A stretch of 52,861 nucleotides of DNA from Planctomycetota bacterium. GTDB lineage: Bacteria; Planctomycetota; Phycisphaerae; Sedimentisphaerales; Anaerobacaceae. Shown in pieces: positions 48,525 through 52,677 of the stretch. The stretch is from NCBI GenBank assembly GCA_020351025.1, contig CP070728.1, forward strand, positions 1,554,321 to 1,607,181, given 5' to 3'. The notes below the pieces were generated by a model, which ran no database searches, had not been told where the DNA came from, and saw nothing but the letters and a program-made list of their open reading frames with translations. The position numbers and the translations under genes are program-made. Each line of letters opens with the position of its first letter. Positions within the stretch are counted from its first letter, which is position 1.

Positions 48525-48839
48525 CCAATTAACCAATCCACTAATTCACTCATCTGCACATTAACCCATTCACACATAAATCCCGACATTAAATATCGAG
48601 CATCCAGCATTTCAATCAAATGCGCATATACCTAAAACCAAAAATCCGTTTTTTCAAAATTTTTTTATCTCTTTCCAAATAAGCACTTACAAATTTATAC
48701 CATCCGAAAAACCCCCGTTTTTCGACACAAATGCGCATGTCCGCCCTTAATTGAGGGGGCGCAGAGTCCACACGCAAAGGCCAGCAGCCCCAGCCAAATT
48801 TAACCATTATTGGATGGTCGATGACGAATGGTCAATAAC
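48525..48839. other. Gap with low-complexity sequence and an 11-base direct repeat
   Basis: No gene. CAAATGCGCAT occurs at 48617-48627 and again at 48728-48738 and contains the palindrome ATGCGCAT. Between the copies lies an eight-base hairpin with a CCCC loop (CGAAAAAC 48705-48712, GTTTTTCG 48717-48724). The left part is degenerate 'AACC-ATT' sequence of the type that also borders the next repeat. Confidence 0.4.
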
Positions 48840-48882
48840 CCATTAACCCGTTTACACGTTTACCCATTTACTCGTTTACTCG
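48840..48882 (+). repeat. Tandem 8-base repeat
   Basis: Five consecutive units CCATTAAC, CCGTTTAC, ACGTTTAC, CCATTTAC and TCGTTTAC occupy 48840-48879, then a partial TCG. The consensus is YCRTTTAC. It directly precedes the interspersed repeat at 48894. Confidence 0.75.
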
Positions 48883-48893
48883 TGCAACGTTTT

Positions 48894-49045
48894 ATGCAAA
48901 ACAAACCCAATTCCAGAAAGGTCGAAATGAACGAAAACTTATTTGCCGCAAAGGATTACGAATATGAACCACACCTTCGAAATGCAAAAAAACAAACCCA
49001 ATCAAACCCAACTTGTAGTGAGCTTGTCGAACCTATTTCAAACCC
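48894..49045 (+). repeat. Interspersed 'MQNKPN'-type repeat
   Basis: Translated in one frame this stretch reads MQNKPNSRKVEMNENLF and later NAKKQTQSNPTCSELVEPIS. I recall short intergenic sequences with these translated phrases (QNKPN, NPICSELVEP) as dispersed, degenerate repeats in Phycisphaerae genomes, frequently mis-annotated as small proteins. The sub-motif TGTAGTGAGCTTGTCGAACC (49014-49033) is the core of the second phrase. It is next to a tRNA gene. Recognition rests on memory only, and no second copy lies in this window. Confidence 0.5.
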
Positions 49046-49115
49046 GGCACCTCTGCCGCCCCGAGGAGCGCTTGTTCAGAGAATTTCTGCGGGAGAAACC
49101 AAGCAAAAACAGCCA

Positions 49116-49144
49116 TTGACGTTAATGGGCAGACCTGATAAAAT
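49116..49144 (+). promoter_or_regulatory. Promoter for tRNA-His
   Basis: TTGACG (49116-49121) and TAAAAT (49139-49144) are both five-of-six matches separated by 17 bases, 29 bases upstream of the tRNA. It lies downstream of the interspersed repeat. Confidence 0.65.
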
Positions 49145-49172
49145 TCGCTTTCGGGCGGGGGGAACAGTTATG

Positions 49173-49246
49173 GTGAAAGTAGCTCAGTTGGTTAGAGCAC
49201 TGGATTGTGGATCCAGAGGTCGCGGGTTCGAACCCCGTCTTTCACC
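49173..49246 (+). tRNA. tRNA-His (GTG anticodon)
   Basis: A 74-base cloverleaf with acceptor stem GTGAAAG/CTTTCAC, anticodon loop ATTGTGGAT with GTG, T-loop GGTTCGAACCC and discriminator C. The base before it (49172) is G, giving the extra G-1 opposite C73 that histidyl-tRNA synthetase needs. CCA is not encoded. Confidence 0.96.
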
Positions 49247-49343
49247 CTTTTATAAACTTGCCTTCAAACAGCAAAGTATGTCACAGCATAAAATGCGAAT
49301 CCCTTCGCTGTCATTAGCAATCCCTTTTAACGCCTTATCCTTA

Positions 49344-49859
49344 TCACAGCCTGTTTTAGGCCGTGCTTATCATCGTGCTGGGTTTGCTGTCGGGTTCGCA
49401 CAACATTGCAAACCCAGCGGAGAAGAGGAGAGAAAACGAGTTCCTGCCTTTAAATATCTACTATCATCACAGCAAAAGCCGTGCTTACTTACTTGCTGGG
49501 TTTGCTTAACATCGGCTGCTGCCTTGTTAAGTCTTTTCAAACCCAGCGAAGAAGGGGAGAGAACCCCTATAAATATCCTCCTCACGACTACTATTATGTC
49601 GCGCTTGTTATCGTGCCGGGTTTGTGATTGTACCCGCTCAATTCTTCAAACCCAGCCCTTCGGAGGAGAAAAAAGGTGAGAAAGCGACTCTTAATTCTCT
49701 CTGTATCTATTTTAATCACGGCAAAGCCGTGTTAGATTTCTGCCGGGCTTGGCAACGCCGCTTTTTTTAAACTTGTTTTCCGGCTATCAAGCCCAGCTTG
49801 GGGGGAGAAAACTCCTCGTGAGCATTTATATTTATCACGGTCGGATATATACGCCGTGA
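49344..49859 (-). ncRNA. Tandem array of hairpin units, probable minus-strand small RNA cluster
   Basis: Four homologous units (49344-49466, 49467-49598, 49599-49715, 49716-49834) plus a terminal hairpin (49835-49859), period 117-132 bases. Read on the minus strand each unit has a polypyrimidine tract (core TTCTCYCC), then hairpin B with arms GCTGGGTTTG and CAAACCCRGC, then hairpin A (CACGGC/GCYGTG type; lost in the third unit). Hairpin B arms on the plus-strand coordinates: 49377-49387/49408-49418, 49495-49504/49538-49547, 49615-49624/49647-49656 and 49742-49751/49788-49797. All four non-canonical pairs (49617/49654, 49744/49795, 49471/49480, 49348/49362) are A.C on the plus strand but G.U on the minus strand, so the minus strand is the RNA. 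Unit four also shows a compensatory change (49748/49791, C-G for T-A). Confidence 0.65.
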
Positions 49860-49884
49860 TCGCTCTCATTGTAACCAGCAACAT
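49732..49884 (-). CDS. Small open frame with near-perfect Shine-Dalgarno leading into the hairpin array
   Basis: Fifty codons from the ATG at 49884 read MLLVTMRAITAYISDRDKYK and then run through the terminal hairpin and unit four of the array, ending at a TAA. The sequence AGGAGGTGA, fully complementary to the 16S 3' tail, ends six bases before the ATG, the best ribosome-binding site in the window. No family is recognised and much of the coding length is repeat sequence, so the peptide itself may matter less than translation into the array. It follows the pseudo-receiver gene by 62 bases on the same strand. Confidence 0.45.
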   Translation of the reverse strand: MLLVTMRAITAYISDRDKYKCSRGVFSPQAGLDSRKTSLKKAALPSPAEI

Positions 49885-49946: not shown

Positions 49947-50342
49947 CTATGAGCGGCAAAGTGCTTCGATAGGGATATGACCTTTGAGCCCCAGAACATT
50001 AGCAACGGTTTCTCGGAAGAACCCGTCATCGGACTCATCGGTCAGGACCGCAGAGACACCAAGGCTTCGTGCCGCAATTTCCTGAGCCTTATCGCCTGCC
50101 GTTATAAGGGCTATGGTTGAAATCCCAGGCTTAGCAGCTCTAAGAGCCTTGAGAAATCGGCCATCCTTCATGTCATCCAGGTCCCATTTGCTGATAACGC
50201 TGTCAACATCTTCATTTTTTAAAGAGCGTGCAGCCTCAATTCCCGACTGCTTTGCTACCAATCGTATTGGTAGTTCCCGCAAAATTTCATTTCGGCCATC
50301 CAAACTAACTGTTAAGACTGTTGCTTGTACGAGAACAACCAT
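49947..50342 (-). CDS. Pseudo-receiver domain protein
   Basis: A 131-residue protein with the alternating strand/helix pattern of a response-regulator receiver (VLTVSLDGRNEILREL; VDSVISKWDLDDMKDGRF; ISTIALITAGDKAQEIAARS; GVSAVLTDESDDGFFRETV). Where receivers have the phospho-acceptor aspartate (as in 'DLVLTDWNLP'), this one has SKWDL: lysine replaces it. The N-terminal acidic pair is also missing, and no C-terminal output domain follows. So it is unlikely to be phosphorylated and probably acts by binding a partner. It follows the sigma-54 activator gene on the same strand, with a terminator between, and precedes the hairpin array. Confidence 0.75.
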   Translation of the reverse strand: MVVLVQATVLTVSLDGRNEILRELPIRLVAKQSGIEAARSLKNEDVDSVISKWDLDDMKDGRFLKALRAAKPGISTIALITAGDKAQEIAARSLGVSAVLTDESDDGFFRETVANVLGLKGHIPIEALCRS

Positions 50343-50611
50343 TTAACTTCTCAAAACATATCTGCTGTTCACACACCACACCTTATCTACGATTCATCTT
50401 CAGTTGCTTACCTCGGCCACACTACACTTTTTGTTAAGCGAAGGCCGTACCAAAGTCTGTCCTCACAGGAAAAAATTTTTTAAGTGCTTGTTTTAACACT
50501 ACCTACGTATCAAAAATTTTTTGCGGTTCTTTTTACATCCTTGCCGGAGGATTAACCATTATGGTTGCTAAAAAGTGACAACTATTATGGTAAGTTTTTA
50601 TTTGAAGGCTT
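50343..50611. other. Upstream region of the pseudo-receiver gene
   Basis: No gene. It contains the 13-base palindrome AACCATTATGGTT (50554-50566) and a second half-like copy CTATTATGGTAA starting at 50582, which look like an operator. Several T-runs and A-runs occur. A minus-strand promoter for the pseudo-receiver gene is expected here, but I cannot place it with confidence. Confidence 0.4.
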
Positions 50612-50660
50612 GTTAAAAAACAATCGACCAATTCGGGCGGTGGTAACCGAATTGGTCGAT
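50612..50660 (-). terminator. Intrinsic terminator with a perfect 14-base stem
   Basis: ATCGACCAATTCGG (50623-50636) and CCGAATTGGTCGAT (50647-50660) pair perfectly across a ten-base loop. Read on the minus strand the stem is followed by TGTTTTTTAAC, the U-tract. It ends the sigma-54 activator transcript. Confidence 0.85.
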
Positions 50661-50843: not shown

Positions 50844-51902
50844 TTAGCCGCTTGTTTTTTTCTCTGTCGCGGAAATGTTCAATTTTTCAATGAGGCGGTT
50901 TAGTTTTCGACGTTCAATTCCAAGTATTTTTGCAGCAGCGATTTTGCGCCCCCTGGTGAATTCAAGGGTCTGTGTAATAATCTTGCGCTGCACATCGTCA
51001 AGTGTAAGTAACTCGTGTCTTGGGTAAGGTGAAGGTTCAGCGATTATGACCTCGAAAGGCATGGCGGCAGGTTGAATTTCCCGGCTGGTGGTCAGAACAT
51101 AGGCACGTTCCATAGCATTAGCAACTTCACGGACATTACCGGGCCAGTTATAATTCAAAAGAAGTTCTTTTACAGCAGGGCTAAGCACCTTGGGCGGTTC
51201 GTTGTAAAAGGCTGCCTGGTTTGCGAGAAAATATTCCGCCAAAGAAAGAATATCTTCTTTGCGATGGCGAAGAGGTGGAACCTCAAGATTAACCACATTT
51301 AACCGATAATATAAATCGGCACGAAACTTGCCTTCTTCGACCAAACCTCGCAGGTCACAGTTGGTAGCACACAAAACGCGTACATCAATAGGATAAGCTT
51401 TTGTTGAGCCAAGAGGTGTTACAGCGTTCTCCTGTAGAACGCGCAACAGCTTAGCTTGCAATGCCAGCGGAATCTCACTTATTTCATCGAAGAAAATTGT
51501 GCCACCATCAGCTGCTCTGAAAAAACCCAGCGTGCTGTCAACAGCGCCGGTAAACGCGCCCCTTATGTGCCCAAACAATTGACTTTCAAACAACTGCCCA
51601 GTTAGAGTGGTGCAATCGACAGGAACAAAAACCTTATCGGCGCGCTTGCTTAGATTATGAATTTGGCGTGCAACCATCTCTTTGCCCACCCCAGTCTCGC
51701 CGGTTATTATCACCGCACACTCGCGGGCGGCAATGGCTTTAACCGCCTTGAGTATCAAAGCAAGCGCATCAGAGCGCCCGACAAATTCAACAGCGCCGCT
51801 TTGGTCCCCATCAAATATGGAAAAACCCGCCTGCACAGTTCTAAAACGCTTATTGAATACCGGCGTATCACCTCGCCTTGAACCACCGCTGTCCTGAGTC
51901 AT
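50844..51902 (-). CDS. Sigma-54-dependent transcriptional activator without receiver domain
   Basis: A 352-residue enhancer-binding protein. The AAA+ domain begins with FVGRSDALALILKAVKAIA and has Walker A GETGVGKEMV, the sigma-54 contact loop GAFTGA, Walker B GGTIFFDEIS and 'NYNWPGNVREVANAMERAYV'. A Fis-type helix-turn-helix ends the protein (TRGRKIAAAKILGIERRKLN). About 30 residues precede the AAA+ core, too short for a receiver domain, so control must come from other proteins; the pseudo-receiver encoded next is a candidate. The start at 51902 is chosen; an in-frame GTG at 51950 would add 16 residues. It needs RpoN, not encoded in this window. A strong terminator follows. Confidence 0.93.
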   Translation of the reverse strand: MTQDSGGSRRGDTPVFNKRFRTVQAGFSIFDGDQSGAVEFVGRSDALALILKAVKAIAARECAVIITGETGVGKEMVARQIHNLSKRADKVFVPVDCTTLTGQLFESQLFGHIRGAFTGAVDSTLGFFRAADGGTIFFDEISEIPLALQAKLLRVLQENAVTPLGSTKAYPIDVRVLCATNCDLRGLVEEGKFRADLYYRLNVVNLEVPPLRHRKEDILSLAEYFLANQAAFYNEPPKVLSPAVKELLLNYNWPGNVREVANAMERAYVLTTSREIQPAAMPFEVIIAEPSPYPRHELLTLDDVQRKIITQTLEFTRGRKIAAAKILGIERRKLNRLIEKLNISATEKKTSG

Positions 51903-52677
51903 TAGCCCTACAACAACTCTCTCTGCGGGTACAAGGAATATCACCCTCACACCCTAATAACAACATTTTGGGTGGTGAGATTTAACCCCAATCGGAGAGC
52001 AGGGGTAATCTCTCCCACTTCTCATAATTTAAAAAAAGCTTAATATTTTGTGATAAAAAAGTCAAGAAAAATTATCGGACGCTTATAGTTTTTTCCCTAA
52101 AAATCAAACAAATCGGAGCCCAAAGCCCCCCTAAAATTGGGAACAGAGATTGCAAGCCCTTAGTACATATTATGTTATGGTTCTTGACAAAAAACTTAAG
52201 CTCGGGCAAATACCACAAGTAGCCTATATTAACATTTTCAAGCCAAGCAATGCCAAAATCGTGTGCGAAATTGCCGATTCAGACCTCAAATTAAGCTTAT
52301 GCCGAGCGGGAATTTACTTTTTTTCAGGCTTTACGCTCAGGCTCCTCACGCCTGCAGTTCCCCCCGTAGAGATATAAAAATTAAGGCCTCTTTGCTAATG
52401 CGAGATAAAAACAAGTGTAACAAGGCCAAATTGACAAGTATATCATTCAATAGGTCAAAACGAAGCTTAAACGTGAGCGTTGCCGTCCGCATTATCAGAG
52501 TCCAAAGCGGAATTATTTACAGCAGAAATCGCTATCGAGCCATCAGCATTTTGAGCTGGGCAATTCTCCACCAATCTTTGGGACAGTTATTTTACACAGG
52601 GAAATGTACACCAGCGGGGCAGGTATGATATAATATTTTTATAAACAGAAATATCTCATTGAAATTTTAGATAAGTA
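51903..52677. other. Divergent gap between the activator and the right-edge membrane protein
   Basis: No gene is supported; short frames such as 52263-52628 have no ribosome-binding site or family pattern. An imperfect hairpin GAGATT..ACCCC/GGGGTAATCTC (51977-52012) lies upstream of the activator start. On the plus strand TGGGAACAGAGATTGCA (52138-52154) has a perfect sigma-54 -12 half and a partial -24. TGTACA (52605-52610) and TATAAT (52629-52634), 18 bases apart, may be a promoter for the right-edge gene. Confidence 0.35.

Follow-up and report, generated by a model that had tools for sequence, protein, structure and literature searches.

On the minus strand of the window (the whole stretch of 52,861 nucleotides that was analysed), positions 50844-51950 encode a sigma-54 activator, or enhancer-binding protein, that carries Sigma54_activat (Pfam, 2e-63) and HTH_8 domains and no receiver domain. 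A predicted sigma-54 promoter, TGGTACGGCCTTCGCT (GG-N10-GC; 50437-50452, minus strand), matches better than all 200 shuffles and stands 110 nt before the start codon of a small gene. Between the activator gene and this promoter lie an inverted repeat, ATCGACCAATTCGG..CCGAATTGGTCGAT (50623-50660), which is a putative binding site (UAS) of the activator, and a second palindrome, AACCATTATGGTT (50554-50566), also a putative UAS; GACC-N5-GGTC palindromes are found in this interval in the window and in several relatives. The small gene (49947-50342, minus strand) is located upstream of an RNA array and encodes a 131-aa protein that matches Pfam Response_reg with an E-value of 5e-5, below the cut-off. 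Since the protein is receiver-like and has an invariant Trp at the phospho-acceptor Asp position in an alignment of 13 relatives, we call it a pseudo-receiver and not a genuine response regulator. Beyond the array, a terminator-like hairpin, GCGAAGGGATTCGC, followed by ATTTTAT (49288-49308, minus strand) is a possible 3' end, which we grade as weak because terminator-like sites are no more numerous than in shuffles. A plus-strand tRNA gene (49173-49246; Rfam tRNA, 72.6 bits) bounds the transcript on the opposite strand and is not part of it. Protein coding was considered for a 283-aa plus-strand ORF (48828-49679), which is regarded as spurious as it crosses both the tRNA and the array.

The array itself comprises four RNA units of ~110 nt on the minus strand (49333-49817), each with a pyrimidine tract, hairpin 1, a spacer of ~11 nt, hairpin 2, and usually an AU-rich linker (AUAAnnAUAAAU). 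Hairpin 1 has the form GCUGGGYUUG..CAARCCCRGC, and hairpin 2 is of the CACGGC..GCCGUG type. All four units are recognized by a covariance model, with E-values from 1e-16 to 3e-14. Unit 1, which belongs to type A, spans 49705-49817 (68.6 bits, E 3e-14), with tract GAGGAGTTTTCTCCCCCC at 49800-49817, hairpin 1 at 49742-49797, and hairpin 2 at 49717-49731. Unit 2 spans 49571-49676 (69.5 bits; tract TTTTTTCTCCTCCG, 49661-49674; hairpin 1, 49615-49656; hairpin 2, 49583-49603), and unit 3 spans 49456-49567 (71.9 bits; tract GTTCTCTCCCCTTCTTC, 49548-49564; hairpin 1, 49495-49547; hairpin 2, 49468-49483). Unit 4, at 49333-49438, has the best score (78.4 bits, E 1e-16), with tract GTTTTCTCTCCTCTTCTCC at 49419-49437, hairpin 1 at 49377-49418, and hairpin 2 at 49345-49365. 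The units share 66-83% pairwise identity and are too diverged for Tandem Repeats Finder, which did not detect the window array. On the 5' side, a cap hairpin (49820-49867, minus strand; GAGAGC..ATCACGG..CCGTGAT..GCTC) is paired in the MFE structure and is kept in relatives. The tandem array of four hairpin units put forward in the original prediction is real and lies on the minus strand, with this additional 5' hairpin and a wider family around it.

The strand of the RNA was argued from base pairing in homologues. Both strands of the array fold far better than shuffled sequences (z-score -6.72 for minus and -6.36 for plus, with 0/100 shuffles as good on either strand), so the choice of strand cannot rest on folding energy alone; the original prediction was right that minus is the RNA strand, but not that the array folds only there. 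Read as minus-strand RNA, the window helices contain 60 Watson-Crick, 5 G-U, and no A-C pairs; the predicted non-canonical pairs are therefore G-U wobbles as proposed, although they number five and not four. The proposed T-A to C-G change is also present, with GGGTTTG/CAAACCC becoming GGGCTTG/CAAGCCC (49788-49797 with 49742-49751). When stems were found in a strand-neutral manner, treating G-U and A-C alike, the 126 units examined gave 206 G-U versus 63 A-C pairs on the minus strand, and it is this asymmetry in homologues on which the minus strand is called as the RNA. The conserved core has a fixed G/U-rich 5' arm and an A/C-rich 3' arm that drifts by A-to-G and C-to-U changes giving wobbles, as expected if the minus strand is the RNA. 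Two-sided changes occur at 7/16 pairs in an alignment of 28 units, versus 2.8 in shuffles. In an alignment of 124 units fitted to the covariance model, two-sided compensatory changes are seen at 16/16 pairs (269 cells versus 53 in shuffles), and 97.8% of cells are paired versus 20-43% for slid structures. Neither an absence of covariation nor conserved pairing on the plus strand, two of the outcomes named beforehand as counter-evidence, was found: compensatory changes on the minus strand exceed those in shuffles, and the G-U bias points to the same strand. Judged from sequence comparison, the units form a family of minus-strand RNAs that is conserved and covaries, and that keeps a C/U-rich anti-Shine-Dalgarno (anti-SD)-like tract before hairpin 1.

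This family also occurs in relatives. DNA search found the array in 19/60 relatives, and a covariance model built from 28 units found units in 30/60, which bears out the expectation that homologues exist. All 23 genomes with matches in a sample of 248 genomes from the same class, and all 5 with matches to a broader model in a sample of 294 genomes from the phylum, belong to the source's own order; no units were detected outside this order in these samples, which were drawn evenly so that rare carriers can be missed. At the gathering threshold, Rfam returned only tRNAs and no family for the units, and matches with E up to 5 were at chance level. Likewise, neither Rfam nor the literature searched contained a planctomycete small RNA (sRNA) array or structured RNA of such kind. 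The number of units per array varies from 1 to 7 across relatives, and the side on which they lie relative to the small gene varies freely. The most diverged array, in G027 (L070 5630-6960), is built of a composite repeat of ~279 bp, each copy of which holds two distinct hairpin modules.

The units are closely tied to the pseudo-receiver gene and to sigma-54. The gene is present in 22/41 genomes, and units lie beside it in 22/22 of these, including two pairings (G027 and G030) seen only with local search, whereas only 3/19 genomes lacking the gene have a lone unit (Fisher 9e-9, with genomes counted as independent despite their shared ancestry). The gene comes first with units on its 3' side in the window and in G001, G003, G005, G013, G022, and G045, lies between units in G004, G008, G014, and G049, and follows the units in G024. 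In most relatives a TGGCAC-type box, as in the TGGCAC-N4-TTCGCT-type boxes, stands before the gene or the first unit. Where units precede the gene, the sigma-54 box stands ahead of the first unit, and this position before the first element even in the reversed order argues for one transcription unit. Many relatives have the activator gene too, in the same orientation and ~850-1200 nt ahead of the small gene, with 56-78% identity, and we consider its product the putative activator of the array transcript. RpoN (sigma-54) is encoded in 38/41 genomes, so that a GG-N10-GC promoter, an activator gene, and the sigma factor are all at hand; Hfq was found in 0/41 genomes. The predicted -24/-12 promoter near the enhancer-binding-protein gene precedes the pseudo-receiver ORF and 1-7 units, and the array apparently makes up the non-coding portion of a sigma-54 transcript that it shares with the small gene. 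We are highly confident that a structured RNA family is read here from the minus strand within a sigma-54 transcript. We see in it a new RNA family whose functional kind is known but whose control, by sigma-54 together with a pseudo-receiver, is new.

What the units conserve in sequence is the pyrimidine tract. The stems differ from one family to the next (GUCGGGCUUG, CUGGGUAUGACG, and GUGGGUUGUA), whereas the tract before hairpin 1 retains an anti-SD-like core, CUCC/UCCUCC, and its sequence is otherwise fixed only in its C/U and anti-SD character. CTCC (CUCC) is found in the tracts of 99/126 units versus 34.8 expected on shuffling, TCCTCC in 41/126 versus 4.7 expected, and CCTCC in 43/126. 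TTCTCYCC, which had been proposed as the seed, does not hold as a general one, as the core common to the families is CUCC/UCCUCC. Nor is the tract especially exposed: its predicted accessibility slightly exceeds that of the remaining array sequence (0.51 versus 0.44), and in the window (0.38-0.50) it is no higher than in the rest there. The suggested sponging or repression of mRNAs gained no specific target from a genome-wide complement search for GAAGAGGAGAGAA allowing <=2 mismatches, which gave 85 sites versus 61 for a reversed control. SD sequences are used by 20/33 window genes, weakly above the control of 45%. Because no 16S rRNA match was returned for the single-contig source assembly, which may reflect masking or an assembly gap, the source's own anti-SD, at the 16S 3' end, is not readable. 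In first units of type A, a nearly invariant GAGGAG immediately precedes TTTTCTCCCCCC (49812-49817 with 49800-49811 in the window, and in relatives), and pairing of type A tracts with their own SD-like GAGGAG is possible. The tracts of the diverged G027 array (L070) read UCUUCUUC, without CUCC.

Like the sigma-54 promoter, the activator gene, and the changing order of gene and units, the copies of the unit at other loci go beyond the original prediction. In a second sigma-54 layout, a promoter is followed by 1-4 units and then by a DUF438/hemerythrin gene (G003, G045, and G021; L043 4760-6255, L063 576-1769, and L107 4909-6175), where the 5' leader holds one unit in G021 and an array in each of G003 and G045. 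Single units lie behind sensor-kinase/response-regulator pairs in G009, G011, G022, and the source genome (974626), and some of those behind two-component genes are followed by terminator-like sequence. Together with the changing position of the gene relative to the units, this suggests that the RNA itself is the product. A unit also lies between a response-regulator gene and csrA in the source genome (2079374) and in G001. In the source genome (from 2079374 on, L105 5075-5476) the order is a LuxR-type response regulator, the unit, csrA, and further response-regulator genes; G001 (L106) has the same order of response regulator, units, and csrA with two units. In G001 (L062 4549-6894), a unit stands directly ahead of the start codon of each of three consecutive PEP-CTERM genes, and in G010 (L112) a unit lies just upstream of a PEP-CTERM gene, next to the same aminotransferase gene as in G001. 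No such unit was found at the readable PEP-CTERM genes of the source genome, and a PEP-CTERM regulon as the main role, which fits only G001 and G010, was rejected. Haft et al. reported a sigma-54 site ahead of PEP-CTERM genes in Proteobacteria only (PMC1569441), and for this reason we claim no link between the units and that motif.

Several known RNA systems resemble the array in part. The LuxO-Qrr system of Vibrio uses sigma-54 and an enhancer-binding protein to drive multiple sibling sRNAs, as is proposed here. However, Qrr sRNAs are separate genes and Hfq-dependent, unlike one polycistronic array with a gene in genomes where Hfq was not found (41 genomes), and no Rfam Qrr match was obtained. 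NfeR1 of the alpha-r14 family is Hfq-independent and has redundant anti-SD motifs and divergent stems, and in alpha-r14/NfeR1 the redundant CCUCCUCCC motifs repress translation (PMC10746234). The planctomycete units share with these and the cuckoo RNAs the repeated hairpins, the conserved anti-SD motif in unpaired sequence, the differing stems, and the redundancy of motifs (PMC10746234). In alpha-r14/cuckoo RNAs every hairpin has CCUCCUCCC in its unpaired region, whereas here the tract precedes hairpin 1 on the 5' side, outside the loops, and is CUCUCCUCUUC- or UCCUCCUCC-like; CCUCCUCCC itself occurs in 0/4 window tracts. The units also come from another phylum than these alphaproteobacterial RNAs, and no alpha-r14 or cuckoo sRNA model of Rfam matches them.

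In layout, a parallel already named in the original prediction is the CcaF1-CcsR1-4 operon of Rhodobacter sphaeroides, which combines a special sigma promoter, a small gene, four tandem homologous sRNAs, and a terminator, with RNase E processing (PMC10253847). The prediction of an analogous yet unrelated CcsR-like layout agrees with our results, since a special sigma promoter, a small gene, tandem homologous RNA units, and a CU-rich anti-SD-like motif are all present. The sigma factors differ (RpoHI/RpoHII there, sigma-54 here), as do the proteins: a DUF1127 RNA-binding protein there, and here a receiver-like protein with no DUF1127. Unlike in CcaF1-CcsR1-4, the order of gene and units varies. 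The units probably work like alpha-r14/CcsR RNAs, in layout and mechanism, without being members of the alpha-r14/cuckoo, Qrr, or CsrB families. The resemblance to the anti-SD RNA clusters of Alphaproteobacteria, which belong to another phylum, looks like convergence; if so, several copies of an anti-SD RNA next to a small regulatory protein would be a recurrent design. The unit family offers a concrete order-wide system of promoter, activator, partner protein, and covarying RNA in genomes without detectable Hfq.

We favour, at about an even chance, the reading that the array yields sigma-54-induced, Hfq-independent sibling sRNAs that act in trans by base pairing with ribosome-binding sites. 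It is favoured on the conserved seed, free stems, several copies, and lack of Hfq, following the logic of alpha-r14/NfeR1, and on the CcaF1-CcsR1-4 layout. Once the activator is switched on, gene and array would be transcribed together, and cleavage within the AU-rich linkers that follow hairpin 2 (AUAAnGAUAAAU) would release sibling sRNAs of ~110 nt. The two hairpins of each would serve as stabilisers, while its pyrimidine tract would pair with the purine-rich ribosome-binding sites of many mRNAs and block their translation without Hfq; the C/U-rich tag thus probably blocks translation of other genes. The copy number of units may set the dose. The co-produced pseudo-receiver probably has a role in this circuit too: it may cooperate with the receiver-less activator, or it may help to mature the RNA. 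A more daring version, which we consider a long shot, is a sigma-54-switched, Hfq-free global translation dimmer, in which the arrays would release 16S-tail mimics in a copy number that sets the dose. The receiver-fold protein, having lost its phosphorylation site, would have turned into an RNA-binding partner that matures or escorts the units.

Alternatively, the units may be a protein sponge that works like CsrB/RsmY or CrcZ: each would bind an RNA-binding protein (CsrA, the pseudo-receiver, or a protein of the cold-shock or S1 type), and the tandem copies would titrate it. CrcZ is transcribed from a sigma-54 promoter, and decoys of the CrcZ/CsrB type carry CA or GGA motifs. Multiple similar modules behind a sigma-54 promoter look like such decoy RNAs in offering many repeated sites in one RNA, the units travel with the pseudo-receiver, and one lies directly before csrA in the source genome and G001. 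Unlike those decoys, however, the units carry C/U tracts, and their RNA strand has fewer copies of GGA, the CsrA core, than expected (0.88 versus 1.41 per 100 nt), which disfavours a CsrA sponge and led us to reject a CsrA decoy; the multiple single-stranded GGA motifs of CsrB/RsmY were not found. As no other candidate protein motif is defined, and the tract differs between families in all but its C/U and anti-SD character, we regard a sponge as unlikely.

Another possibility is that the structures are leaders or trailers that steer the stability, processing, or translation of the mRNA carrying them, and are repeated owing to easy duplication. The single units that in G001 stop a short way ahead of the start codons of PEP-CTERM genes and in G010 lie just upstream of such a gene, the leaders of the DUF438/hemerythrin genes, and the units ahead of the pseudo-receiver in several genomes would fit this. 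On the other hand, in the window and in most relatives the array comes after the gene, on its 3' side, and in the window it has no close codirectional gene downstream; unit number (1-7) and side vary freely, and terminator-like sequence comes after several of the single units and arrays. As a general explanation we find cis action doubtful. The position of some units immediately before PEP-CTERM or csrA genes nevertheless suggests that they act in cis at those loci, and cis roles at the PEP-CTERM, csrA, and DUF438 loci are plausible.

That the units are merely interspersed REP/MITE-like repeats with no regulatory role, as tandem palindromic modules of variable copy number at unrelated loci might suggest, is hardly credible given their fixed strand relative to the promoter and neighbouring regulator genes instead of random orientation, a locus fixed across families, covariation with G-U bias, and only 6 unit copies in all in the 2.27-Mb source genome. 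A short tandem repeat of ACCCRTTT-like octamers lies in the intergenic region before the tRNA gene of the window (48838-48883).
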